Program-made: the position numbers and the translations under genes
Source of the DNA: an uncultured Anaerolineae bacterium
GTDB lineage: Bacteria > Chloroflexota > Anaerolineae > Promineifilales > Promineifilaceae
Direction of reading: 5' to 3'
DNA length: 64,000 nucleotides
Assembly: GCA_937943625.1 (NCBI GenBank)
Contig: CALEAD010000012.1
Coordinates: 1 to 64,000, forward strand
Notes under the pieces: model-generated
What the model was told of the DNA's origin: nothing
The model's database searches: none
Seen by the model: only the letters and a program-made list of their open reading frames with translations
Shown here: in pieces, positions 34,528 through 46,864 of the stretch
Layout of the letters: every line of letters begins with the position of its first letter
How positions within the stretch are numbered: the stretch's first letter is position 1

Positions 34528-35205
34528 CAGCGCCGGCAGCTCATCCAGACGCGCCAGCTCATGATAGCCATTGGCATGCGCGTGGGGTTCCACGTCTGCT
34601 TCGTGTTCCCAGGTGAGGTGGTGCGGCACGTAAACGGCCGTTGCGCCAATTTCTACCACCGGCAGCACGTCAGAGCGCAGCGAATTGCCCACCATCATAA
34701 AGCGCTGGGGAGCAACGCCCCGCCTGCGCAGCAGGTCGCCATACACCTGCGCATTTTTGTGGCTAACCACGACAAAATCAGCCAGCAGGTCGGCCAGCCC
34801 AGAGCGCGCCAGCTTGCGCTCCTGATCGAGAATGTCCCCTTTGGTGATCACAATCAGCGGGTAATGGGGAGCCAGCGCCGCCAGCGTTTTGCGCGCGCCG
34901 GGCAGCAGTTCCACCTCGGCGGCAATCATCTCTTTGGCACCATCCAGCAGCGCGCGAATGATGTGGCCCGGAGGCTGCCCGTTGTTGAGGGAAACGGCCG
35001 TTTCAATCATTGAAAGTGTGAACGTCTTTAGACCATACCCATATCCGGCCATGTTGCGCATCTCTGTTTCGTATAGAGCGCGCTCTACGGTAGCCGCGTC
35101 GTGCGTGTGCGCCAGCAGCGTTTGCAGGCGCGCCGCAGCATGGCGATAGTGGCGCTCATTGTGCCAGAGCGTGTCGTCCGCATCAAAGGCAATCAGCTCG
35201 AACAT
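34471..35205 (-). CDS. HAD-family hydrolase
   Basis: IAFDADDTLWHNE..., LIVITKGDILDQERKLARSGL, MVGNSLRSDVLP. Confidence 0.9.
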   Translation of the reverse strand: MFELIAFDADDTLWHNERHYRHAAARLQTLLAHTHDAATVERALYETEMRNMAGYGYGLKTFTLSMIETAVSLNNGQPPGHIIRALLDGAKEMIAAEVELLPGARKTLAALAPHYPLIVITKGDILDQERKLARSGLADLLADFVVVSHKNAQVYGDLLRRRGVAPQRFMMVGNSLRSDVLPVVEIGATAVYVPHHLTWEHEADVEPHAHANGYHELARLDELPALLARLHHNHNGQGRKRGQA

Positions 35206-35405: not shown

Positions 35406-35757
35406 AGAAGATGAACCATGCTACGTTTTACAAACCGTTTAGCTGGGGAAGTTCACGACAAAGAGAGACAAAATCATGCTGAGAGCGATAATGATACCGA
35501 CCACGATGAACGCTTTTTCCGTGGCGCTGCGCCCCTGCTTGGGCCTAAACTTGGGGGGGGTTGGCCCTTTTACCGGTGCTTCTCTTCTTTTTCTTTGCTT
35601 TGCCATAAGCCAAAATCTCCTCTACATCAAGTGTTTGTGCAACCGGCGATTATACCACAATCGCAGGGGCGCAAAAATAGTCACACAGGCTTTACTGCCT
35701 GCGCCTGATCGGCCCTGTCCCTACCATCATTGGTATGGCGGGTGGAGGAAATGATGC

Positions 35758-35787
35758 TTGACAAGGGCGCACCATTCATATTAAACT
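35758..35787 (+). promoter_or_regulatory. sigma70-like promoter upstream of the lacI element
   Basis: TTGACA at 35758; TTAAAC/TAAACT at a 17-18 nt spacer. Confidence 0.55.
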
Positions 35788-35819
35788 AATGTTACCGGTC
35801 ACGTGACCGGTAACATTAG
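35786..35819. promoter_or_regulatory. 34-bp perfect palindrome, candidate LacI-family operator
   Basis: CTAATGTTACCGGTCAC|GTGACCGGTAACATTAG. Confidence 0.85.
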
Positions 35820-35950
35820 AGACTTCAGGCGTGAGACCCCGCACGAATGAAAAGATAAGGCAGGTTGCCAAACCTGCGCCTGCCAACCGAGTTTGGCAAC
35901 CTGGGCTACACTTACAGGCGACCGTCGGCGGTCATTTTCAAGGGAGAAAA
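35820..35950 (+). repeat. composite dispersed 5' element (C-B-A) upstream of lacI-family gene
   Basis: GAGACTTCAGGCG...CACGAATGAAAAGATAAGGCAGGTTGCCAAACCTGCGCCTGCCAACCGAGTTTGGCAACCTGGGCTACACTTACAGGCGACCGTCGGCGGTCATTTTCAAGGGAG. Confidence 0.85.
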
Positions 35951-35953
35951 GAT

Positions 35954-36973
35954 ATGGCTCGTTCCCGCGTAACTATGCGCGATGTGGCTGCTCAGGCTGG
36001 CGTTTCTCACCAGACCGTCTCGCGGGTGATCAATGGCAGTGAGCGTGTCAGTGACGAGACGCGCGCGCGTGTGGAAACGGCCGTTGCCCTCTTAGGCTAT
36101 CAACCCAATGCTATTGCCCGCTCCATGGCGCGTGGAAGAGCGGGCGTGCTGGCCTGCATTGCCCCCAACCTGACTGATTACACCTTTGCCAGCCTGATAG
36201 ATGGCGCGGAAACGGCCGTGCGTGAACAGGGCTATTTTCTCCTTTCTGCTTCGGCGCGCAACGAGGAGACCTTTGCCGCGTTGATGGAAGAGCTGGTGAC
36301 AAGCGGTCGGGTCGAGGGGCTGATTGTGATTAATCCCTATGCCGACAGCCGTTACCAACACCTGCCCCCCGACTTCCCCGTTGTTTTTGCTGGCGCGCGC
36401 CCGCGCGACAACGCCACGCATTCGGTGGCGCTAGACGATGTGACGGCCGCCAAAATGGCCACACGCCACCTGCTGCAATTAGGCCATCAGCGCATAGGCG
36501 TGGTCACCGGCCCGCTGGCGGAAGATTGCTCACAAGACCGCTGCCAGGGGTATGAAGAGGCGCTGCGCGAAGCGGGTCTGGCGTCTGCGCCAGAGTTAAC
36601 CATTGCCGGGGATTGGTCTGCGCGTTCGGGCTATGATGCGTTGATGCAGTTTGCGCAGATGGGGGAATTGCCAACGGCCGTGTTTGCGCAAAATGATCAG
36701 ATGGGTGCAGGCATCTTGCGCGCCGCGCGCGACCTGGGGTTGCGTGTTCCACAGCAGCTTTCCGTTATTGGCGTAGATGACATTCCCCTGGCGGCCTACT
36801 TTGAGCCGCCATTGACGACCATGCAGCAAGATTTCCGTGCCATTGGCCGCGAGGCTGCCCGCTTGCTAGGGCGCGCGATTGCGGAACCAGGCCAACCGCC
36901 CCAACAGCTACGCCTGCCCGCACGCCTGATTTTGCGCCAATCTACCACCTGGTTGGTTGGTCAGGTTAGTTAG
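35954..36973 (+). CDS. LacI-family transcriptional regulator
   Basis: VTMRDVAAQAGVSHQTVSRVINGSERVSDETRARVETAVALLGYQPNAIAR. Confidence 0.96.
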   Translation: MARSRVTMRDVAAQAGVSHQTVSRVINGSERVSDETRARVETAVALLGYQPNAIARSMARGRAGVLACIAPNLTDYTFASLIDGAETAVREQGYFLLSASARNEETFAALMEELVTSGRVEGLIVINPYADSRYQHLPPDFPVVFAGARPRDNATHSVALDDVTAAKMATRHLLQLGHQRIGVVTGPLAEDCSQDRCQGYEEALREAGLASAPELTIAGDWSARSGYDALMQFAQMGELPTAVFAQNDQMGAGILRAARDLGLRVPQQLSVIGVDDIPLAAYFEPPLTTMQQDFRAIGREAARLLGRAIAEPGQPPQQLRLPARLILRQSTTWLVGQVS

Positions 36974-37118: not shown

Positions 37119-38480
37119 ATGCGCATAAAACAACTTTGGTCTTTAATTGCTCTGCTGCTGTTAGTAAGTCTGGTGTTGGCAGCCTGTGGCGGCGGCACAA
37201 CCACCAGTCAACCAGCCGCAAATGAACCTGCCGCGAATACGGCCGTTGAACCTGCCGCACCCGCTGCTGAAGTCACCATTCGCTGGCGCACCCGCCCCGA
37301 CAACCAGGAAGAAGCCAACGTTTATCAAAATATCAGCAATCAGCTAGACGCACAGCTAGAAGGTATCAAGCTAGTGTACGAGCCGGGTGGCAGCGAGACT
37401 GCCTCTTACCAGGATGTGCTAAAGACGGAGCTGGCCTCTGGCACGGCTCCCGACGTGTTCTGGATTCCCGGCACAGACGTGGCCGACTTTGCCACGCGCG
37501 GCCTGATTTATGATTTGCGCCCGCTGGCGAATGCCACCCCCGGCTACAGCGATGATGCCTTTTACCCTGGCCCGATGCTCCACCTGACCTTCAACCCGGC
37601 CACTGGCAAAAGCGGCGAAGTGCTATGGGGGCTGCCACGTGATGTTTCTACCTTTGCTCTCTACCTGAACCTGGACCTGATTGAAGAAGCGGGTGCAGAA
37701 GACCCGCGTGAACTGGAAGCGGCCGGTGAATGGGACTGGGATGCCTTTATGGAAGTGGCAAAGGCCGTGAGCGCCCTGGGCGGCGAGTTTAAGGGGTATG
37801 GCGGTAGTGCCTGGTGGGGGCCGTATGGCGTCTGGATCAATGCTGCTGGTGGCAGTTTCTTCAACGCCGACCGGACTGCGTGTGCCCTGAACACCCCCGA
37901 AGCGCTGGAAGGGTTGGCCTTTGCACAGATGCTGTACACGCAATCAGGCGTGGCTGTACCCTATGGCGAAGACCCGGAACCTCCTTTCCGCGCCGGTAAA
38001 GTGGGCATGTTCCAAAACGGCCGTTGGGCCACCCCTGGTATTCGCACCGTCAACTTCAATTGGGACGTGGTTGGCCTGCCCACCGGCCCCAATGGCGAGC
38101 CGGGTAACTGGCTCTTCTGGGGCGCTTACGTCGTCAACGCCAACACCCCCAACCCCGAACAGGCCTGGAAGCTGGTGCAGGCGCTGACAACGGCGGAAAC
38201 ACAAGGTAAAGTAGCCGCCCTGGGCGCCAACATCCCCAGCCGCGTCAGCCAGGAGGCGCTGGATGCTTTCCTCACCTTTACGCCACCGGCCAACAACCAG
38301 GCGTTCCTGAATGGTCTGGCGCAAGACCCCACCGCTGAAGGGCCGCTGTGGGCCGGTTCCTGGCCACAGTTTGTCACGGTGATGGATGCCGCTATCTCTT
38401 CACTGCTGACCGGGCAGACGACGCTAGACAATTTTGCCGCCACGGTCTGCGACGAGGCGAACAAGGCGTTTAACCGATAG
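37119..38480 (+). CDS. sugar ABC transporter substrate-binding lipoprotein
   Basis: Lipobox LVLAACGGG; TELASGTAPDVFWIPGTDVADFATRGLIYDL; sugar-binding protein fold signature. Confidence 0.93.
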   Translation: MRIKQLWSLIALLLLVSLVLAACGGGTTTSQPAANEPAANTAVEPAAPAAEVTIRWRTRPDNQEEANVYQNISNQLDAQLEGIKLVYEPGGSETASYQDVLKTELASGTAPDVFWIPGTDVADFATRGLIYDLRPLANATPGYSDDAFYPGPMLHLTFNPATGKSGEVLWGLPRDVSTFALYLNLDLIEEAGAEDPRELEAAGEWDWDAFMEVAKAVSALGGEFKGYGGSAWWGPYGVWINAAGGSFFNADRTACALNTPEALEGLAFAQMLYTQSGVAVPYGEDPEPPFRAGKVGMFQNGRWATPGIRTVNFNWDVVGLPTGPNGEPGNWLFWGAYVVNANTPNPEQAWKLVQALTTAETQGKVAALGANIPSRVSQEALDAFLTFTPPANNQAFLNGLAQDPTAEGPLWAGSWPQFVTVMDAAISSLLTGQTTLDNFAATVCDEANKAFNR

Positions 38481-38773: not shown

Positions 38774-40453
38774 ATGCAATTGACGACGAATCGCGCGCGG
38801 TTTGGGCTGCCAGGAACACTGGCGCTGCATCTGCGTCTGGTGGCTGGGTGGCATATTTTGCTCAGTGTGGTGGGCGCAACGGCCGTTGCCTATCTTTGGC
38901 TGGCAAATGGCGGCATGGTGCTGTGGCTGAAGGGAATCAGTACGGCCGTGTTGCTCATGCTCACCATTGCCAGCGTCCTGGCTGTGCCTGCCCTTTTGCG
39001 CCGCCAGCATCGTGGGCGCACGCTCTCCTTGCTGGTGAACTACCTGGGTTTTGTCTTTGCGCTCATTGCCCTGCTCCATTACGCCGGCGTATTCATCGGC
39101 ATAGACGCCCTGGCCAATACCTTTGGTCGCGGCGTGCTCTTTTTCAGCGTCATCCTTGCCGGCTACCTGGTTCACGGTGTGGCCGACCGCTTCCGCGACT
39201 ACCCACAAACTTTCCGGCGATTGCAACGCACGGGCAACTGGGTCATGCTGGCCGGGCTGGTTGCCTTCTTATTGGCAGTTGGCCTTATTCCTGGGCTGCT
39301 GGCCTTTCTGGCGCGCTTAGGCGAGCCGCGCAACGCGCTGCTTTTTGGCGCCGTGCTGCTCTTTGGCTTTGTGCTCTGGCTGATGTGGCGGCACGAGATG
39401 GCCAGCCTGCTGGGCGAAAAAAGCCGCGATTCAGAAATGCTAAACGGCTACCTCTTTCTTTCGCCCAATTTGCTCGGCTTCTTGCTCTTTTTTGCCGGGC
39501 CGCTGCTGCTCTCGCTCTACGTCAGCTTCACCGACTCAGACGCTTTTGGGCGGCAAAACTGGATTGGCCTGCAAAACTACGGCGAAATTTTTAATTTGAG
39601 CGTGGCGCCACTGCAAAGCCCCACACAGTTGGCCGGTGAGGTGCTGGACGTGCGTGTCTATGACGAGCTGACGCGCTTTACGCTGTTTGGCCGCAGCTAC
39701 GTGCTGGGTGCGCAGGATAAGCTGTTTTGGATTGCCCTGCGCAACACGGTGATGTTTGTGCTCACGGCCGTTCCCCTCAGCGTTGTTCCCGCGCTGCTGC
39801 TGGCGGCCGTGCTCAACAGTCAAGTGCCCGGTATGAAGGTGTTCCGCACCATTTACTTTCTACCCAGCATTGCCGCCGTCGTTGGCGTGGCGCTCATCTG
39901 GCGCTGGCTCTACAACTCCACCGTTGGTTGGATCAACTACTTCATTGCCAGCATCGTCACCCTCATCAACCAGCTTGCTGGTGCAGAGGTGCTGACCGAC
40001 CCACAAATTGGCTGGCTCTCCGACACCAAGGTCGCACTGTTTGCCGTCGTTATCATTGCTGCCTGGCAATGGATGGGCTTTAACACCGTGCTTTACCTGG
40101 CCGGGCTGCAAAACATCCCCAAGTCACTTTATGAAGCGGCAACGGTAGATGGCGCCAACAGCCTGACACAATTTTTCCGCATCACCATTCCCTTGCTCGC
40201 CCCCACCACCTTTTTCGTCGTTTCCACCACCACCATTCAGGCGATGCAAATTTTTGACCAGGTCTATGTGCTAACCAATCCGCCAGGCGGCCCTGGCACC
40301 TCGACGACGACCATTGTGCTCTATTTGTACACGCAGGGCTTCCGCAATTTCCGCCAGGGATACGCCTCGTCCATTGCCTGGGTGCTATTCTTGCTCATCT
40401 TTGGCCTGACCATCTTCCAGTTTCAGCGGCAACGCAGCGCCGCCGCCGAGTAA
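38774..40453 (+). CDS. sugar ABC transporter permease (MalF-like) with N-terminal polytopic extension
   Basis: About 220 aa of extra TM region before GYLFLSPNLLGFLLFFAGPLLLSLYVSFTDSD; EAA loop LYEAATVDGANSLTQFFRITIPLLAP. Confidence 0.92.
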   Translation: MQLTTNRARFGLPGTLALHLRLVAGWHILLSVVGATAVAYLWLANGGMVLWLKGISTAVLLMLTIASVLAVPALLRRQHRGRTLSLLVNYLGFVFALIALLHYAGVFIGIDALANTFGRGVLFFSVILAGYLVHGVADRFRDYPQTFRRLQRTGNWVMLAGLVAFLLAVGLIPGLLAFLARLGEPRNALLFGAVLLFGFVLWLMWRHEMASLLGEKSRDSEMLNGYLFLSPNLLGFLLFFAGPLLLSLYVSFTDSDAFGRQNWIGLQNYGEIFNLSVAPLQSPTQLAGEVLDVRVYDELTRFTLFGRSYVLGAQDKLFWIALRNTVMFVLTAVPLSVVPALLLAAVLNSQVPGMKVFRTIYFLPSIAAVVGVALIWRWLYNSTVGWINYFIASIVTLINQLAGAEVLTDPQIGWLSDTKVALFAVVIIAAWQWMGFNTVLYLAGLQNIPKSLYEAATVDGANSLTQFFRITIPLLAPTTFFVVSTTTIQAMQIFDQVYVLTNPPGGPGTSTTTIVLYLYTQGFRNFRQGYASSIAWVLFLLIFGLTIFQFQRQRSAAAE

Positions 40454-40465
40454 GGGGGGAGGATC

Positions 40466-41668
40466 ATGTTTGCCTCGCAACGCTTGCGCAAATGGTTGCG
40501 TTACAGCGCCATCTACCTGACGCTGACCTTTTTTGCCCTGGTTATGCTTTTCCCGTTTTTGGTGATGCTATTCACCTCGTTCAAACAGGTCTCAGATACC
40601 TTTATTTTTCCACCGCGCCTGCTGCCGCGCGTGCCTGTCAGCGCCGAAGTGGCCGGGTTTGAACAGCCCTTGCCGCTGTACCGCGTGGAGTTTGAGGGGG
40701 ATACAAGTGAGTTTGTCTTGCTGGAGCGTTCTGTGCGTGTGGGCTATTTTGCACCGCCCGCAAATCTGGAGACCACTTATCTGCGTGAACTGGATCAGGC
40801 GCCTGCAACCGGGGAAACGGCCGTTGTCAATGGCGTTGAGCAGCCCCTCTATCGCGTCGAACTGGATGGCGCGTTTGTGCCCATGGTGCTGCTCAACCGC
40901 ACCGCCATGGCGCGCTTTGCCAACCCCGAAGACCTCAGCCAGACCGTCCTGGCGCCCCTGCGCACCACCCCACCCGTCGAGCGCATCGCCTTCACGCTCG
41001 ACAATTACCGCAGCGTCACCGAACTGCACGCCATGGACCGCAGCCTGACCAATACTGCCTTGGTGACCATTGGTGTGGTGCTGGGGCAGTTGACCACCTC
41101 CATTCTAGGCGGCTACGCCTTTGCCCGCCTGCAATTTCCCGGGCGCGACCGCCTCTTTGTCATCTACCTGGGCACGATCATGGTTCCCTTTGTCGTTCTC
41201 ATTACGCCACTTTACCAACTGATGGTAATGATTGGCTGGGTAGACCGCCTGGCTTCGCTGATTATCCCCTGGATTTTCACCGCCTACGGCACCTTTCTCA
41301 TGCGCCAATTCTTCCTTTCCGTGCCCAAAGAAATTGAAGAGGCAGCGATTATTGATGGCGCGTCGCGTCTGCAAATTTTGTGGTGCATTTTTATCCCTGC
41401 CAGCACTCCTGCGCTGGCCTCACTTACCACCTTTACCTTTCTCTATGCCTGGAACAGCTTCTTCTGGCCACTGGTTATCATCAACACCGGTAACGAAAAC
41501 AACCGCGTCCTCACCCTGGCGCTGAGCGTTTTGGGTGGGCGTGCCGCCGACAGTCCCAACCTGGTGCTGGCCGGTGCGGCCATTGCCGTGCTGCCGCCGG
41601 TGCTGATTTACGTCTTAGGCCAACGCTTCTTTGTTGAAAGCGCCACCAGTAGCGGTGTAAAGGGATGA
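40466..41668 (+). CDS. carbohydrate ABC transporter permease (MalG-like) with extracytoplasmic insertion
   Basis: TM1 LTFFALVMLFPFLVMLFTSFK; EAA loop EIEEAAIIDGASRLQILWCIFIP; about 120-aa insert after TM1. Confidence 0.92.
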   Translation: MFASQRLRKWLRYSAIYLTLTFFALVMLFPFLVMLFTSFKQVSDTFIFPPRLLPRVPVSAEVAGFEQPLPLYRVEFEGDTSEFVLLERSVRVGYFAPPANLETTYLRELDQAPATGETAVVNGVEQPLYRVELDGAFVPMVLLNRTAMARFANPEDLSQTVLAPLRTTPPVERIAFTLDNYRSVTELHAMDRSLTNTALVTIGVVLGQLTTSILGGYAFARLQFPGRDRLFVIYLGTIMVPFVVLITPLYQLMVMIGWVDRLASLIIPWIFTAYGTFLMRQFFLSVPKEIEEAAIIDGASRLQILWCIFIPASTPALASLTTFTFLYAWNSFFWPLVIINTGNENNRVLTLALSVLGGRAADSPNLVLAGAAIAVLPPVLIYVLGQRFFVESATSSGVKG

Positions 41669-41683
41669 TTATGTGAATTGTGA

Positions 41684-42460
41684 ATGATGGAATTGTACGA
41701 TGCCTACATCTTTGATCTGGATGGCACGGTTTACCTGGGGGATGCGCTGCTGCCGACCGCCGGAGAAACCATTACCCGCCTGCGGCAAATGGGGCGGCGC
41801 ACTATCTTTCTCTCTAACAACCCCAGCCGCACGCGTGCCGAGTATGCCGCCAAACTGACGCGCCTGGGGCTGCCCACGCTGGCGAGCGATGTCGTCAACT
41901 CCTCTTACGTGATGGTAGACTTTTTGCGCCGCCATCTGCCCCAGGCGCGCCTGTTTGTGGTTGGCGAAGCCTCGCTGGAGAATGAGCTGCGCCGCGCCGG
42001 TTTTACCCTGACTGACCGCGCTGCGGAAGTGGATGCTGTCATTGCCAGCTTTGACCGCACTTTTACCTATCGCAAGCTGCAAATCGCCTTCGATGCCATT
42101 CGCGCCAGCGCGCGCTTTTTTGCCACCAATGCTGACCGCTACTGCCCGGTTCCTGGCGGGGGCGAGCCAGATGCAGCGGCGATGATTGCCGCAATTGAGG
42201 CGTGTACGGCTACCAAAGTGGAGGCCGTCGTTGGCAAGCCTTCTGCCTACATGGCGGAGGCGGTGCTGGGGTTGTTGGGGTTGCCGCCAGATCGGTGTAT
42301 CATGATCGGCGACCGCCTGGAGACGGATGTGCTGATGGGGCTGAACGCGGGCATGGCGACAGCGCTGACGTTGACCGGGGCGACAACGGCCGATACGGTT
42401 GCCGCCTCGCCGATTCAGCCAACTTATGTTATTCGCGCTTTGGGGGAATTGCTCCCTTGA
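41684..42460 (+). CDS. HAD-IIA family hydrolase (NagD-like)
   Basis: AYIFDLDGTVYLGDALLPTAGETITRLRQMGRRTIFLSNNPSRTR; VVGKPSAYMAEAVL; MIGDRLETDVLMGLNAGM. Confidence 0.92.
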   Translation: MMELYDAYIFDLDGTVYLGDALLPTAGETITRLRQMGRRTIFLSNNPSRTRAEYAAKLTRLGLPTLASDVVNSSYVMVDFLRRHLPQARLFVVGEASLENELRRAGFTLTDRAAEVDAVIASFDRTFTYRKLQIAFDAIRASARFFATNADRYCPVPGGGEPDAAAMIAAIEACTATKVEAVVGKPSAYMAEAVLGLLGLPPDRCIMIGDRLETDVLMGLNAGMATALTLTGATTADTVAASPIQPTYVIRALGELLP

Positions 42461-42568: not shown

Positions 42569-44077
42569 ATGACCAACATTTACCTTCTTGGCATTGACCA
42601 GGGAACCAGCGGCAGCCGCGCTCTGGTGCTGAACGGCGCAGGAGACGTTTGCGGCTATGCCTATCGTCCCGTGCCGGCCATTCATCCGCAGCCAGAGTGG
42701 ACGGAGCAGGACCCGTACGAAGTGGCCGACGGCGTGGCTGCGGTTATCACCGAGGCAGTGACGCAGGCGAGCGTTGACCCGGCGACTGTTGTGGCCTGTG
42801 GCATCACCTGCCAGCGCAATACCGATTTTGTCTGGCACGCGCAAACAGGACGGCCGTTAGCCAATGCCATCACCTGGCAAGATTTGCGCACCCGTTCGCT
42901 GCTGGCTGAGCTGGAACAATGGCCGCTGCTGCGCGAAGCGCGCGCACGCCTGGGCTACGCCCCCGGCACCTATATGACGGCGCTGCACCTGAGCTGGCGG
43001 ATGGCGCACGAAACGGCCGTTGCCCAGGCCGCTCAATCTCACCAACTGCGCATCGGCCTTTCCGCCGCCTGGCTGATTCAGGCGCTTGGCCGTCCCCATG
43101 GGCATCAGATGGACCGCTCCTTGGTGCAGGCCACCGGCCTGTACGACTTTCGCCGCGGTGATTACTGGCAGCCCTGGCTGGAGCGGCTGGGTGTGCCGCG
43201 CAGCGCCCTGCCCCAGCCTGTGCCGACGCTGCACCCCTTTGGCACGCTGCGCGTATCTGCCAACGGCCGTACTGCCGACGTGCCCGTGCGCGCCATGATT
43301 GGCGACCAGCAGGCGGCGCTGTTTGGGCATGGCTGCACCGCGCCCGGCGATGCCGAAACCACACATGGCACCGCTTCTTATCTAAAGGTCTTTTTGGGCT
43401 GCGAGGCGCCGCTTCAGGATAACGTGAACGTCTATTACGCCTGGGACGTGGGCGAAGGGCAAACCTACTGCCTGGAAGCGCCCACCACCGTCATCGGCGC
43501 AGCGCTGCGCTGGATGCGCGATCAGGCGTGCTTTTTGCGGGATTATCAGGAGATCGAAACGCTGGCAACGGCCGTTGGCGATAGCGGTGGCGTGGTGTTT
43601 GTGCCTGCCTTTACCGGGCTAGATGCCCCTTATAACGACCCCGGCGCGCGCGCCACGCTCATTGGCATGACCCTGGGCACAACGCGCGCCCACATTGTGC
43701 GCGCCTTTCTGGAGGGACTGGCCTATCAGCTGCGCGCTATTCAAGAAACGATTGCCCACGATGCTGGCATTGAGATGCGCCAATTGCTGGTGGGTGGGGG
43801 CGTTTCTGCCAGTGACATTGCCTGTCAGTTGCAGGCAGATGTGCTGGGGATTCCCGTGATCCGGCCGTCATTTACAGAAACGACCGCCCGCGCTGCCGCG
43901 CTGCTGGCCGGGCTGGCGGCAGGCGTCTGGCCGACGGTAGCCGCTTTGCCCCCTTTGCCGGGCAGCGCGCACCGGTTTACGCCTGCTCCTTTTGATGCGG
44001 CGCGCGAGCAGGGATACGGCCGTTTTCAGCAAGCCATCGCCCTGACGCGCCAGTGGAGCAAGGGAGTGGAGGAATAA
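42569..44077 (+). CDS. FGGY-family carbohydrate kinase (glycerol kinase-like)
   Basis: LLGIDQGTSGSRALVLN, PEWTEQDPYEV, VGGGVSASDIACQLQADVLGIPV. Confidence 0.9.
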   Translation: MTNIYLLGIDQGTSGSRALVLNGAGDVCGYAYRPVPAIHPQPEWTEQDPYEVADGVAAVITEAVTQASVDPATVVACGITCQRNTDFVWHAQTGRPLANAITWQDLRTRSLLAELEQWPLLREARARLGYAPGTYMTALHLSWRMAHETAVAQAAQSHQLRIGLSAAWLIQALGRPHGHQMDRSLVQATGLYDFRRGDYWQPWLERLGVPRSALPQPVPTLHPFGTLRVSANGRTADVPVRAMIGDQQAALFGHGCTAPGDAETTHGTASYLKVFLGCEAPLQDNVNVYYAWDVGEGQTYCLEAPTTVIGAALRWMRDQACFLRDYQEIETLATAVGDSGGVVFVPAFTGLDAPYNDPGARATLIGMTLGTTRAHIVRAFLEGLAYQLRAIQETIAHDAGIEMRQLLVGGGVSASDIACQLQADVLGIPVIRPSFTETTARAAALLAGLAAGVWPTVAALPPLPGSAHRFTPAPFDAAREQGYGRFQQAIALTRQWSKGVEE

Positions 44078-44113: not shown

Positions 44114-44761
44114 CTAATTCGTATACCCCCGGCTGGTATCAGCCGTTTCTGTTTCGCCGGCCAGCATACTCAGGAAGGCGTCATGGGTCATGGGGCGAGA
44201 AAACATCGGATAATCCCGCTCAATGGCAACGCGGTGCTCTTCTTCGCTGGTAGCAGCCACGCAATCCGTCAGGGTGATCACGTTATAGCCGCGCTCGTAA
44301 GCGGTGCGCATGGAGGACTCGACGCAGCAGTTTGTGAGGAAACCACCCAGTACTACATTTTGCAGGCCGCGGCTGCGCAGAATAAAGTCCAGATTGGTGC
44401 TGGCAAAGGCGCACAGGCCGCGCTTTCCTTCGACGATAATGTCTTCTGGCTTTGGCTGTATAACGTCTACAATTTCTGCGCCCCAGGTGCCCTTGCGGAA
44501 TGATTTGGTGTCTACGACCCCTTTGAGGATGCCATAAGGCTCTGGCCCTAACTCGTGGTAATCATCGGTAAAGGTGATGGGCGCATGAATGATGGTAGCC
44601 CCCATTTCCCGCGCTTTGGCAACGGTTTCGGCGGCATTTTGCAGCATGTTGGTTTTCTCCATCACGTCTTTCACGGCACCGTGCAGGCTGCCGCCTTCAG
44701 AGGTGAAGTCATTTTGGAATTCAATCATGACAACGGCCGTTTTCGAGGGATCGAGCTTCAT
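44114..44761 (-). CDS. isochorismatase-like cysteine hydrolase
   Basis: KTAVVMIEFQNDFTSEGGSLHGAV; VVLGGFLTNCCVESSMRTAYERGYNVITLTDCVAA. Confidence 0.9.
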   Translation of the reverse strand: MKLDPSKTAVVMIEFQNDFTSEGGSLHGAVKDVMEKTNMLQNAAETVAKAREMGATIIHAPITFTDDYHELGPEPYGILKGVVDTKSFRKGTWGAEIVDVIQPKPEDIIVEGKRGLCAFASTNLDFILRSRGLQNVVLGGFLTNCCVESSMRTAYERGYNVITLTDCVAATSEEEHRVAIERDYPMFSRPMTHDAFLSMLAGETETADTSRGYTN

Positions 44762-44866
44762 GTGGGACATCTCCTTTTTCTGACTGAACTTTTGGGACAA
44801 AATGGAATGCTTTCAGTATAAATGAGGATAGCGCAACACGATCTAGCTATTTACCACTTTTTTAGA

Positions 44867-46864
44867 ATGATGCAATTTGGCGTTTGTTACTACCCCGAAC
44901 ATTGGCCACAGGCACGCTGGGCCGAAGATGCGCGCCTGATGCGCGCGGCTGGCCTGGAAATGGTGCGCATTGGTGAATTTGCCTGGGCGGAGATGGAACC
45001 CGCGCCCGGTAAATATGCGTGGGAATGGCTCGACCAGGCCATCGAGACACTGGCCGCTGCCGGGCTGAAGCTGATTTTGGGCACGCCCACCGCCACGCCC
45101 CCCGCCTGGCTGACGCAGGCCTACCCCGACTGCCTGCGCATGGACAGCAACGGCCGTTACCGCCAACATGGCAGCCGTCGCCACACCTGCCCCAACAGCC
45201 CCACCTACCGCTACGAAAGCCGCCGCATTGTTGCGGCAATGGCGCAGCGCTACGCCAGTCATCCGGCCCTGATTGGCTGGCAAATTGACAACGAGTTTGG
45301 CGGAGGCAAAACGGCGCGTTGTTATTGCCCCCACTGCGCCGCCGCTTTTCGCGTCTGGCTGCAAGCGCGTTACGGCAGCCTGGCCGACCTGAATGAAGCC
45401 TGGGGCACAGTCTTTTGGTCACAGCGCTACAGCGATTGGGCGCAAATTCAACCCCCCGGCAGTCAGATTGATAAACCCAACCCCAGCCACGAACTCGACT
45501 ACTACCGCTTTTGCTCCGATTCTTACGTGGCCTACCAGCAAACGCAGATAGAGGCAATACGGCCGTATGCCCCGCACCAATTCATCACCCACAACTTCAT
45601 GGGGCTGTTCCGCGACTTGAACCAGCATGACCTGGCTGCACCGCTTGATTTTGCCGCCTGGGACAACTACCCCACCGGCAACCCAGAACGCTGGCGCCTC
45701 ATGCTCTATCCGCCCGGCATGGATACGCGCCGCACAGACCCCACTTATGCCTACGACGTCGGCGACCCCATCATCACCGGCATGGCGCATGCGCTGACGC
45801 GCGGCCTGAAGCAGGCCCCCTTTTGGGTGATGGAGCAGCAGTGTGGCCACATCAACTGGGGCGCAGACAACCCCGGCATTCGCCCCGGCACGCCGCGCCT
45901 GTGGGTGTGGCACGCCGTTGCCGAGGGGGCCAGCGCCGTTGTTTACTTTCGCTGGCGGGCGACGCTGTACGCGCACGAGCAATACCACTCTGGCCTGCTG
46001 CGGCACGAAGGCCGTTTTGATGCGGGTTGGCACGATCAGCAAACGCTGCTGGCGGAAAAGGGGCTGCTAGATGCCGTAGCCGCCCAGCCCTACAGCGCAA
46101 AGGTGGCGCTGTTGTTTGACTTTGACGACACCTGGGCGATTCAGCTTCAGCCCCACCGCGCCGATTTTGGCTATTTGCGCCACCTTTATGTCTACTATCA
46201 CGCTTTGCAGCAGCTAGGGGTAGCTGTTGACGTGGTTTCGGCGCGCGCCGATTTACGGCCGTACAGGCTGCTGATCGCCCCCACCCTGCATCTGGCAGGC
46301 CCAGAAACGGCCGCGCGCCTGCAAGCCTATATGGCGCAGGGGGGCACGCTGCTACTCGGCGTGCGTTCTGGCTTTAAGACGCCCAGCAACTTGGTGACGG
46401 CTGCGCCGCTGCCCGGCAATTTACGACCGTTGGTTGGGGCACAGATCACAAGCTGGCAGTCGCTGCCCGATGGCGTGAGCTGGCAGGTAGAAACGGCCGT
46501 TCCCGATCTTGGCGGCGCGGTTGGGTATTGGGTCGAAACGTTGGCGCCGGAAACGGCCGGCGCCCTGGCGCATTATGTCAATGAAGAGGCACAAGGTCTG
46601 GTTGCCCTTAGCGAAAACCGCGTGGCGCATGGGCGCGTCCTCTACCTGGGCTGGTACCCCACTCACGCGCAGGCGGGCGCGCTGCTGCGCTACCTGCTGC
46701 CGCAGCTGGGCATTGCCCACCTGGAAGAGCTGCCCGCGGGGCTGCTCGCTATTCCGCGCGGCCCCTACACCGTGCTGCTCAACTTCACCGACCAACCGCT
46801 GACGGCACAAATTGGCGCCCAGCCGCTGACAGTAGCGGCAAGAGATGTGCGAGTGGTTGGATAG
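44867..46864 (+). CDS. beta-galactosidase, GH42
   Basis: FGVCYYPEHWPQARWAEDARLMRAAGLEMVRIGEFAWAEMEP; IGWQIDNEFG; PFWVMEQQ. Confidence 0.95.
   Translation: MMQFGVCYYPEHWPQARWAEDARLMRAAGLEMVRIGEFAWAEMEPAPGKYAWEWLDQAIETLAAAGLKLILGTPTATPPAWLTQAYPDCLRMDSNGRYRQHGSRRHTCPNSPTYRYESRRIVAAMAQRYASHPALIGWQIDNEFGGGKTARCYCPHCAAAFRVWLQARYGSLADLNEAWGTVFWSQRYSDWAQIQPPGSQIDKPNPSHELDYYRFCSDSYVAYQQTQIEAIRPYAPHQFITHNFMGLFRDLNQHDLAAPLDFAAWDNYPTGNPERWRLMLYPPGMDTRRTDPTYAYDVGDPIITGMAHALTRGLKQAPFWVMEQQCGHINWGADNPGIRPGTPRLWVWHAVAEGASAVVYFRWRATLYAHEQYHSGLLRHEGRFDAGWHDQQTLLAEKGLLDAVAAQPYSAKVALLFDFDDTWAIQLQPHRADFGYLRHLYVYYHALQQLGVAVDVVSARADLRPYRLLIAPTLHLAGPETAARLQAYMAQGGTLLLGVRSGFKTPSNLVTAAPLPGNLRPLVGAQITSWQSLPDGVSWQVETAVPDLGGAVGYWVETLAPETAGALAHYVNEEAQGLVALSENRVAHGRVLYLGWYPTHAQAGALLRYLLPQLGIAHLEELPAGLLAIPRGPYTVLLNFTDQPLTAQIGAQPLTVAARDVRVVG

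Follow-up and report, generated by a model that had tools for sequence, protein, structure and literature searches.

What kind of element is a perfect 34-bp palindrome that overlaps a promoter and lies ahead of a gene for a LacI-type regulator? The palindrome occurs in a 64,000-nucleotide stretch of DNA, referred to here as the window, and in the original prediction it was taken for one LacI-family operator with a central CG dyad, placed on the regulator's own promoter. The type and the place of the element are borne out by its conservation in orthologous promoters, but the single site is not: judging from sequence comparison, the palindrome is two overlapping LacI-type operator units, each with its own centre (Table 1), rather than one 34-bp operator.

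The palindrome and its promoter

The two arms of the palindrome (CTAATGTTACCGGTCAC / GTGACCGGTAACATTAG, 35786-35819) are perfectly matched 17-mers with no spacer between them, a configuration expected by chance approximately 4e-6 times per window (4^-17 x 64,000, by simple arithmetic). With the 24-bp core as the search pattern and up to three mismatches allowed, this site is the single match in the 4.09-Mb genome, and the perfect palindrome of the original prediction is confirmed as unique. The promoter is sigma-70-like (TTGACA-18-TAAACT, 35758-35787), is directed at the LacI-family gene, and has its 3' end within the left edge of the palindrome. Its TTGACA element is the one first proposed; the proposed TTAAAC gives way to TAAACT, which is one base over and matches better. 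The distance from the palindrome to the ATG of the regulator gene was measured as 134 bp, essentially the ~135 bp first estimated. The pattern that had been suggested for searching the genome (TTACCGGTnnnnACCGGTAA) has a 4-bp gap in place of the true n6, and because of this wrong spacing it is unable to find even the window's own site; a slightly lengthened version had no matches.

Table 1. Features of the promoter and of the downstream gene cluster (positions are those of the window)
Feature	Position	Strand	Basis or remark
-35 element TTGACA	35758..35763	+	sequence; TTGACA equally placed in most orthologs
-10 element TAAACT, 18-bp spacer	35782..35787	+	stops 1 bp short of operator unit 1
34-bp perfect palindrome	35786..35819	none	element of the original prediction
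Candidate operator unit 1, ATGTTACC/GGTCACGT halves, centre 35796/35797	35789..35804	none	extent of the unit deduced from orthologs with one unit or with 14-bp spacing
Candidate operator unit 2, ACGTGACC/GGTAACAT halves, centre 35808/35809	35801..35816	none	12 bp between its centre and that of unit 1
LacI-family repressor, 339 aa, recognition helix SHQTVSR, without C-terminal tetramerisation extension	35954..36973	+	Pfam, alignment
ABC sugar-binding protein (SBP_bac_1)	37119..38480	+	conserved beside regulator
ABC permease, UgpA/MalF type	38774..40453	+	family match, conserved neighbour
ABC permease, UgpE/MalG type	40466..41668	+	family match, conserved neighbour
HAD-family phosphatase	41684..42460	+	family match, conserved neighbour
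FGGY kinase, GlpK-like, QRNT replacing QRET	42569..44077	+	family match, motif comparison
GH42 beta-galactosidase-like	44822..46864	+	conserved cluster member

Other sequence elements are found nearby. The leader contains a perfect 13-bp inverted repeat with a loop of 17 nt (CAGGTTGCCAAAC, 35861-35903), and since this 13-mer has 15 matches in the window (at most two mismatches) against 3 expected, it is probably a dispersed repeat inserted between the operator and the gene. The sequence GGAAACGGCCGT / AACGGCCGTTT, possibly a dispersed motif, recurs in the window (34990-35001, 36073-36084 and 36208-36219) and also in the upstream regions of relatives. Divergent from the promoter, on the minus strand, is a small ORF of 57 aa (35431-35606), whose product has a charged start and a hydrophobic end (MAKQRKRREAPVKG...).

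The regulator and the downstream genes

The regulator protein matches the N-terminal LacI helix-turn-helix domain (Pfam PF00356) and Peripla_BP_3 (PF13377), both well above the cut-off. Its best NCBIfam model is that of the E. coli-type LacI (PRK09526), with a score of 239.7 bits that is below the 340-bit cut-off, and its scores with the NCBIfam equivalog models of IdnR (93.2 against 500 bits) and of the gluconate regulator GntR (84.8 against 433 bits) place it outside both groups. In alignments with lac repressor chains of known structure, the match ends at residue 331 of the regulator's 339, which indicates that the regulator has no tetramerisation tail. In its own genome the only match at E <= 1e-60 is the regulator itself. 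A scan of genome contigs returned mostly distant relatives.

The original prediction had sugar ABC and kinase genes downstream of the regulator, and the family matches agree with this. The gene order LacI-SBP-permease-permease-HAD-kinase-GH42 is conserved around most orthologs of the regulator; in two loci (L061 and L062), the HAD-kinase-GH42 part is on the opposite strand. An isochorismatase-family gene is located on the minus strand between the kinase and GH42 genes (44114-44800), and has no match in the clusters of relatives.

Two overlapping units in orthologous promoters

The ortholog set was limited to promoters whose upstream sequence is complete, 19 in all: that of the window and 18 others (regulator proteins 57-72% identical). 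The nearest relative (G001) was left out of the count because one and the same double site falls at the ends of two of its contigs. The original prediction had named absence of the palindrome from orthologous loci as the observation that would speak against it. What we find is that a 16-bp unit, with the consensus ATGTKACC/GGTMACAT, is present in 19 of the 19 promoters: as pairs at 12 bp in 16, as a pair at 14 bp in one (L003), and as a single copy in two (L013 and L014). The overlapping two-unit arrangement is thus kept in 17/19. In the window, the two units are arranged head-to-head with a 4-bp overlap, and their CpG centres are 12 bp apart. The conserved stretch covers only 28 bp, and the outer CTA/TAG (the three outermost base pairs of either arm) varies among orthologs. 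The half-sites of the window match ATGTTACC/GGTAACAT, so that the GntR-type likeness noted at the outset holds. Each unit is an even, palindrome-like element of 16 bp with a central CG, and this agrees with the description of LacI-family operators as even palindromes of 16-22 bp with CG at the centre (PMC4052901).

Several promoters depart from the common arrangement. L013 and L014 have one perfect and complete 16-bp unit each; in L003, and also in L133, both units are intact at a spacing of 14 bp; and in L004 the 28-bp overall symmetry is broken, with each unit intact. The single-unit orthologs, the 14-bp ortholog and L004 together argue that the element is the 16-bp unit and not the 34-mer. 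The 34-bp symmetry can be explained by two slightly asymmetric units that are placed in opposite orientation, 12 bp apart. In three other orthologs (L005, L006 and L008), the second unit is weakened. The operator lies directly behind the promoter in nearly all orthologs, and in most of them it starts 1-2 bp past the -10 hexamer, at the same distance as in the window, so that the start point is covered.

Further units were sought in the whole genome with the single-unit pattern and up to three mismatches, which gave 25 matches, versus 44 for the reversed control. Since there are no extra units above this control, we take the regulon to be local, and we do not claim a wider one.

Spacing of paired units across the class

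To describe the spacing more broadly, we used a sample of 397 genomes of the source bacterium's class, in which counts were made by hand from the listed matches. Search 1 (two ACCGGT-centred half-units at any spacing of 12-37 bp) gave a sharp peak, with 16 or 17 of approximately 28 places among the listed matches at 12 bp (the count depends on one site that is probably split across two contigs), one at 14 bp, and none at 13 bp. Search 2 (a general LacI-type unit, GTGANCGNTMAC...GTKANCGNTMAC, at spacings of 12-32 bp) listed 40 places, with 32 at 12 bp, three at 15 bp, four at 21 bp, one at 30 bp, and none at 13 or 14 bp; the reversed pattern gave one match. The pairs at 12 to 15 bp are found no more than 200 bp upstream of a LacI-family gene in 14/14 retrieved cases for search 1 (including L144, where the second pair of the locus is the one upstream of the LacI gene) and in 19/21 for search 2, whereas none of the retrieved pairs at other spacings adjoins a LacI gene upstream (0/11 and 0/2, respectively). 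Some of the regulators with 12-bp pairs are only ~30% identical to the window regulator.

Altogether, 53 loci with a LacI gene have 50 measurable pairs, of which 45 are at 12 bp, two at 14 bp, three at 15 bp and none at 13 bp; the set is biased to some extent towards 12 bp, since one of the contributing searches was restricted to that spacing (searches 1 and 2 were not). Single-linkage clustering of the regulators of these loci gives 18 groups at 60% identity and five at 50%. In 51 of the 53, the recognition helix reads QTVS with R as the next residue, as in the lac repressor. Three consecutive units at intervals of 12 bp occur upstream of LacI-family genes in L085 (1501-1536; G352:C321:12858-12893) and L172 (1489-1524). 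The related regulators of L150, L151 and L154 have units that are 15 bp apart (GTGAACGTTCACATTGTGAACGTTCAC), and their close relative L153 has 12 bp, which makes these four a natural spacing series. No 12-bp pairs were found in a sample of 121 Chloroflexota genomes, 15 of them members of the class, tallied irrespective of their number of LacI genes.

Interpretation of the double site

A single operator of 34 bp (or 28 bp), with one dyad at 35802/35803 and read by one dimer or tetramer, would suit the perfect symmetry in the window and that over 34 bp in L003. We consider it very improbable given the two orthologs with one complete unit only, the intact units at a spacing of 14 bp in L003 and L133, the loss of overall symmetry with both units kept in L004, and a regulator that has no room for a lac-type tetramerisation tail. 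It is hardly credible, too, that the palindrome serves as a nucleic-acid structure, i.e., a minus-strand terminator, a cruciform, or an mRNA-stabilising 5' hairpin. The palindrome does fold as RNA, and has a terminator-like score on the minus strand with TTTAATATGA behind it, but the long stem is missing in single-unit orthologs, it is the sequence and not pairing alone that is conserved and that tracks LacI genes across the class, and an Rfam search gave no match to an RNA family. The minus-strand terminator match was rejected because no minus-strand gene runs into the palindrome. The overlapping sites might also be read by two different LacI-type regulators; going by titles in the reference list of PMC4052901, E. 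coli GntR and its paralog GntH both act on GntR-regulated genes. Here, both units share one consensus and the genome has no second match to the regulator at E <= 1e-60, and we regard this explanation as extremely unlikely.

There remain two ways in which the same repressor could use both units. We take as the likelier, at roughly even odds, the proposal that two dimers would bind side by side, and cooperatively, on the double site. The 12-bp overlap imposes a compromise sequence, ACGT, at positions where the ends of isolated units have AT. That the strict spacing is retained despite this compromise, and that three-unit arrays exist, argues that both units are occupied together, with neighbouring dimers in contact. 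On binding, LacI-family dimers are known to unwind the DNA at their central CpG; for this reason, 12 bp may be approximately one turn in the complex, with both dimers on one face. Counting against a double operator, a lone unit suffices in two orthologs. Furthermore, in standard LacI-family structures the contacts extend ~7 bp to each side of the centre (PMC4052901), so that dimers on centres only 12 bp apart would be expected to clash, and use of one site at a time is possible. The units would then be alternative registers for a single dimer, with the second site raising the effective affinity and the binding rate, and with the start region always covered. We hold this to be a real possibility, although on balance a doubtful one. 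It is in keeping with the inner half-sites, which adjoin in one major-groove stretch, with published structures, which leave no space for two dimers (PMC4052901), and with the weakened second unit of some orthologs. However, alternative registers do not need an exact spacing, whereas the sampled pairs show a strong preference for 12 bp and include none at 13 bp; the ACGT compromise is a cost that is not expected without some benefit from the 12-bp spacing; and three-unit arrays at 12 bp exist. If the cooperative proposal is extended to the class, many of its LacI-family repressors might line up side by side on unwound DNA, in rows of two and sometimes three dimers that repeat every 12 bp, a generalisation that we offer tentatively. 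We know of no solved LacI-family structure that shows such a cooperative array mode on unwound DNA, and the open-access literature searched yielded no structural account of how overlapping LacI-family sites are bound.

Proposed mechanism and possible effectors

We consider it very probable that the LacI-family repressor encoded next to the element uses it as a double operator, and would autorepress its own gene and the downstream genes until a ligand releases it. On comparative-genomic grounds, the case for autorepression by this LacI protein is strong; for the window regulator itself, we infer binding, repression and induction by a sugar. The predicted double operator begins 1 bp past the -10 element and would extend from about -6 to about +22. 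As long as no sugar-type ligand is present, the repressor would occupy both units and block RNA polymerase, thereby shutting off the regulator gene and the ABC-transporter/HAD/kinase genes, and binding of the ligand would free the repressor from the operator. The position at the -10 element and start point, the adjoining regulator gene and the local regulon argue for simple autorepression of this kind, relieved by a ligand derived from the transported sugar.

The downstream genes bear on the possible ligand. The kinase has the motif QRNT or QRNS in 7/7 relatives examined, whereas solved glycerol kinases have QRET. By this motif, its substrate is probably something other than plain glycerol, and another polyol or sugar is possible as the effector. 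Galactosides, the ligands first suggested, would be compatible with the conserved GH42 gene. As a guess, a galactosyl-polyol such as galactosyl-glycerol would suit both the GH42 and the kinase genes.

Comparison with known systems

Overlapping LacI-family operators have already been described, and what is new here is the strict 12-bp version. Ravcheev et al. (2014; PMC4052901) reported conserved, overlapping LacI-family sites, at ~13 bp, upstream of 110 operons, with E. coli gntKU as the tested case; they found such sites hard to reconcile with the structures, and suggested partial unwinding. As in the window, two sites of one regulator overlap in one promoter and are conserved in orthologs. 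The spacing differs, however, since in the sampled class it is 12 bp, in a few cases 14 or 15, with no case of 13, and we therefore consider its sites to be a variant of that arrangement. The sampled class is also different in its three-unit 12-bp arrays, its half-site GTKANC and its QTVSR helix. With approximately 50 promoters, a near-invariant 12 bp, and natural 14-bp, 15-bp, single and three-unit forms, it provides material for the puzzle of dimer co-binding, and the strict spacing makes the question of occupancy testable. In addition, the double-unit pattern is a clear annotation signature of autoregulated LacI genes in the source bacterium's group.

The GntR operators of E. coli gntKU are likewise two overlapping units in one promoter (sequence read as AATGTTACCGATAACAGTTACCCGTAACATT), with nearly the same half-sites (ATGTTACC / GGTAACAT). 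Their centres in the gntK promoter are 13 bp apart, as opposed to 12 bp in the window, and for this reason the E. coli double site is less symmetrical; GntR is, moreover, a gluconate regulator from proteobacteria and belongs to a different subfamily from the window regulator. With the E. coli lac repressor, the window regulator shares the QTVSR recognition helix. The half-site of the lac operator is of the GTGA type, as in the window, and units of paralogs, such as GTGAGCGCTCAC, are lac-operator-like. The E. coli lac system, however, has single pseudo-palindromes and a looping tetramer, whereas the window regulator has no tetramer tail and is paired with two units that overlap.
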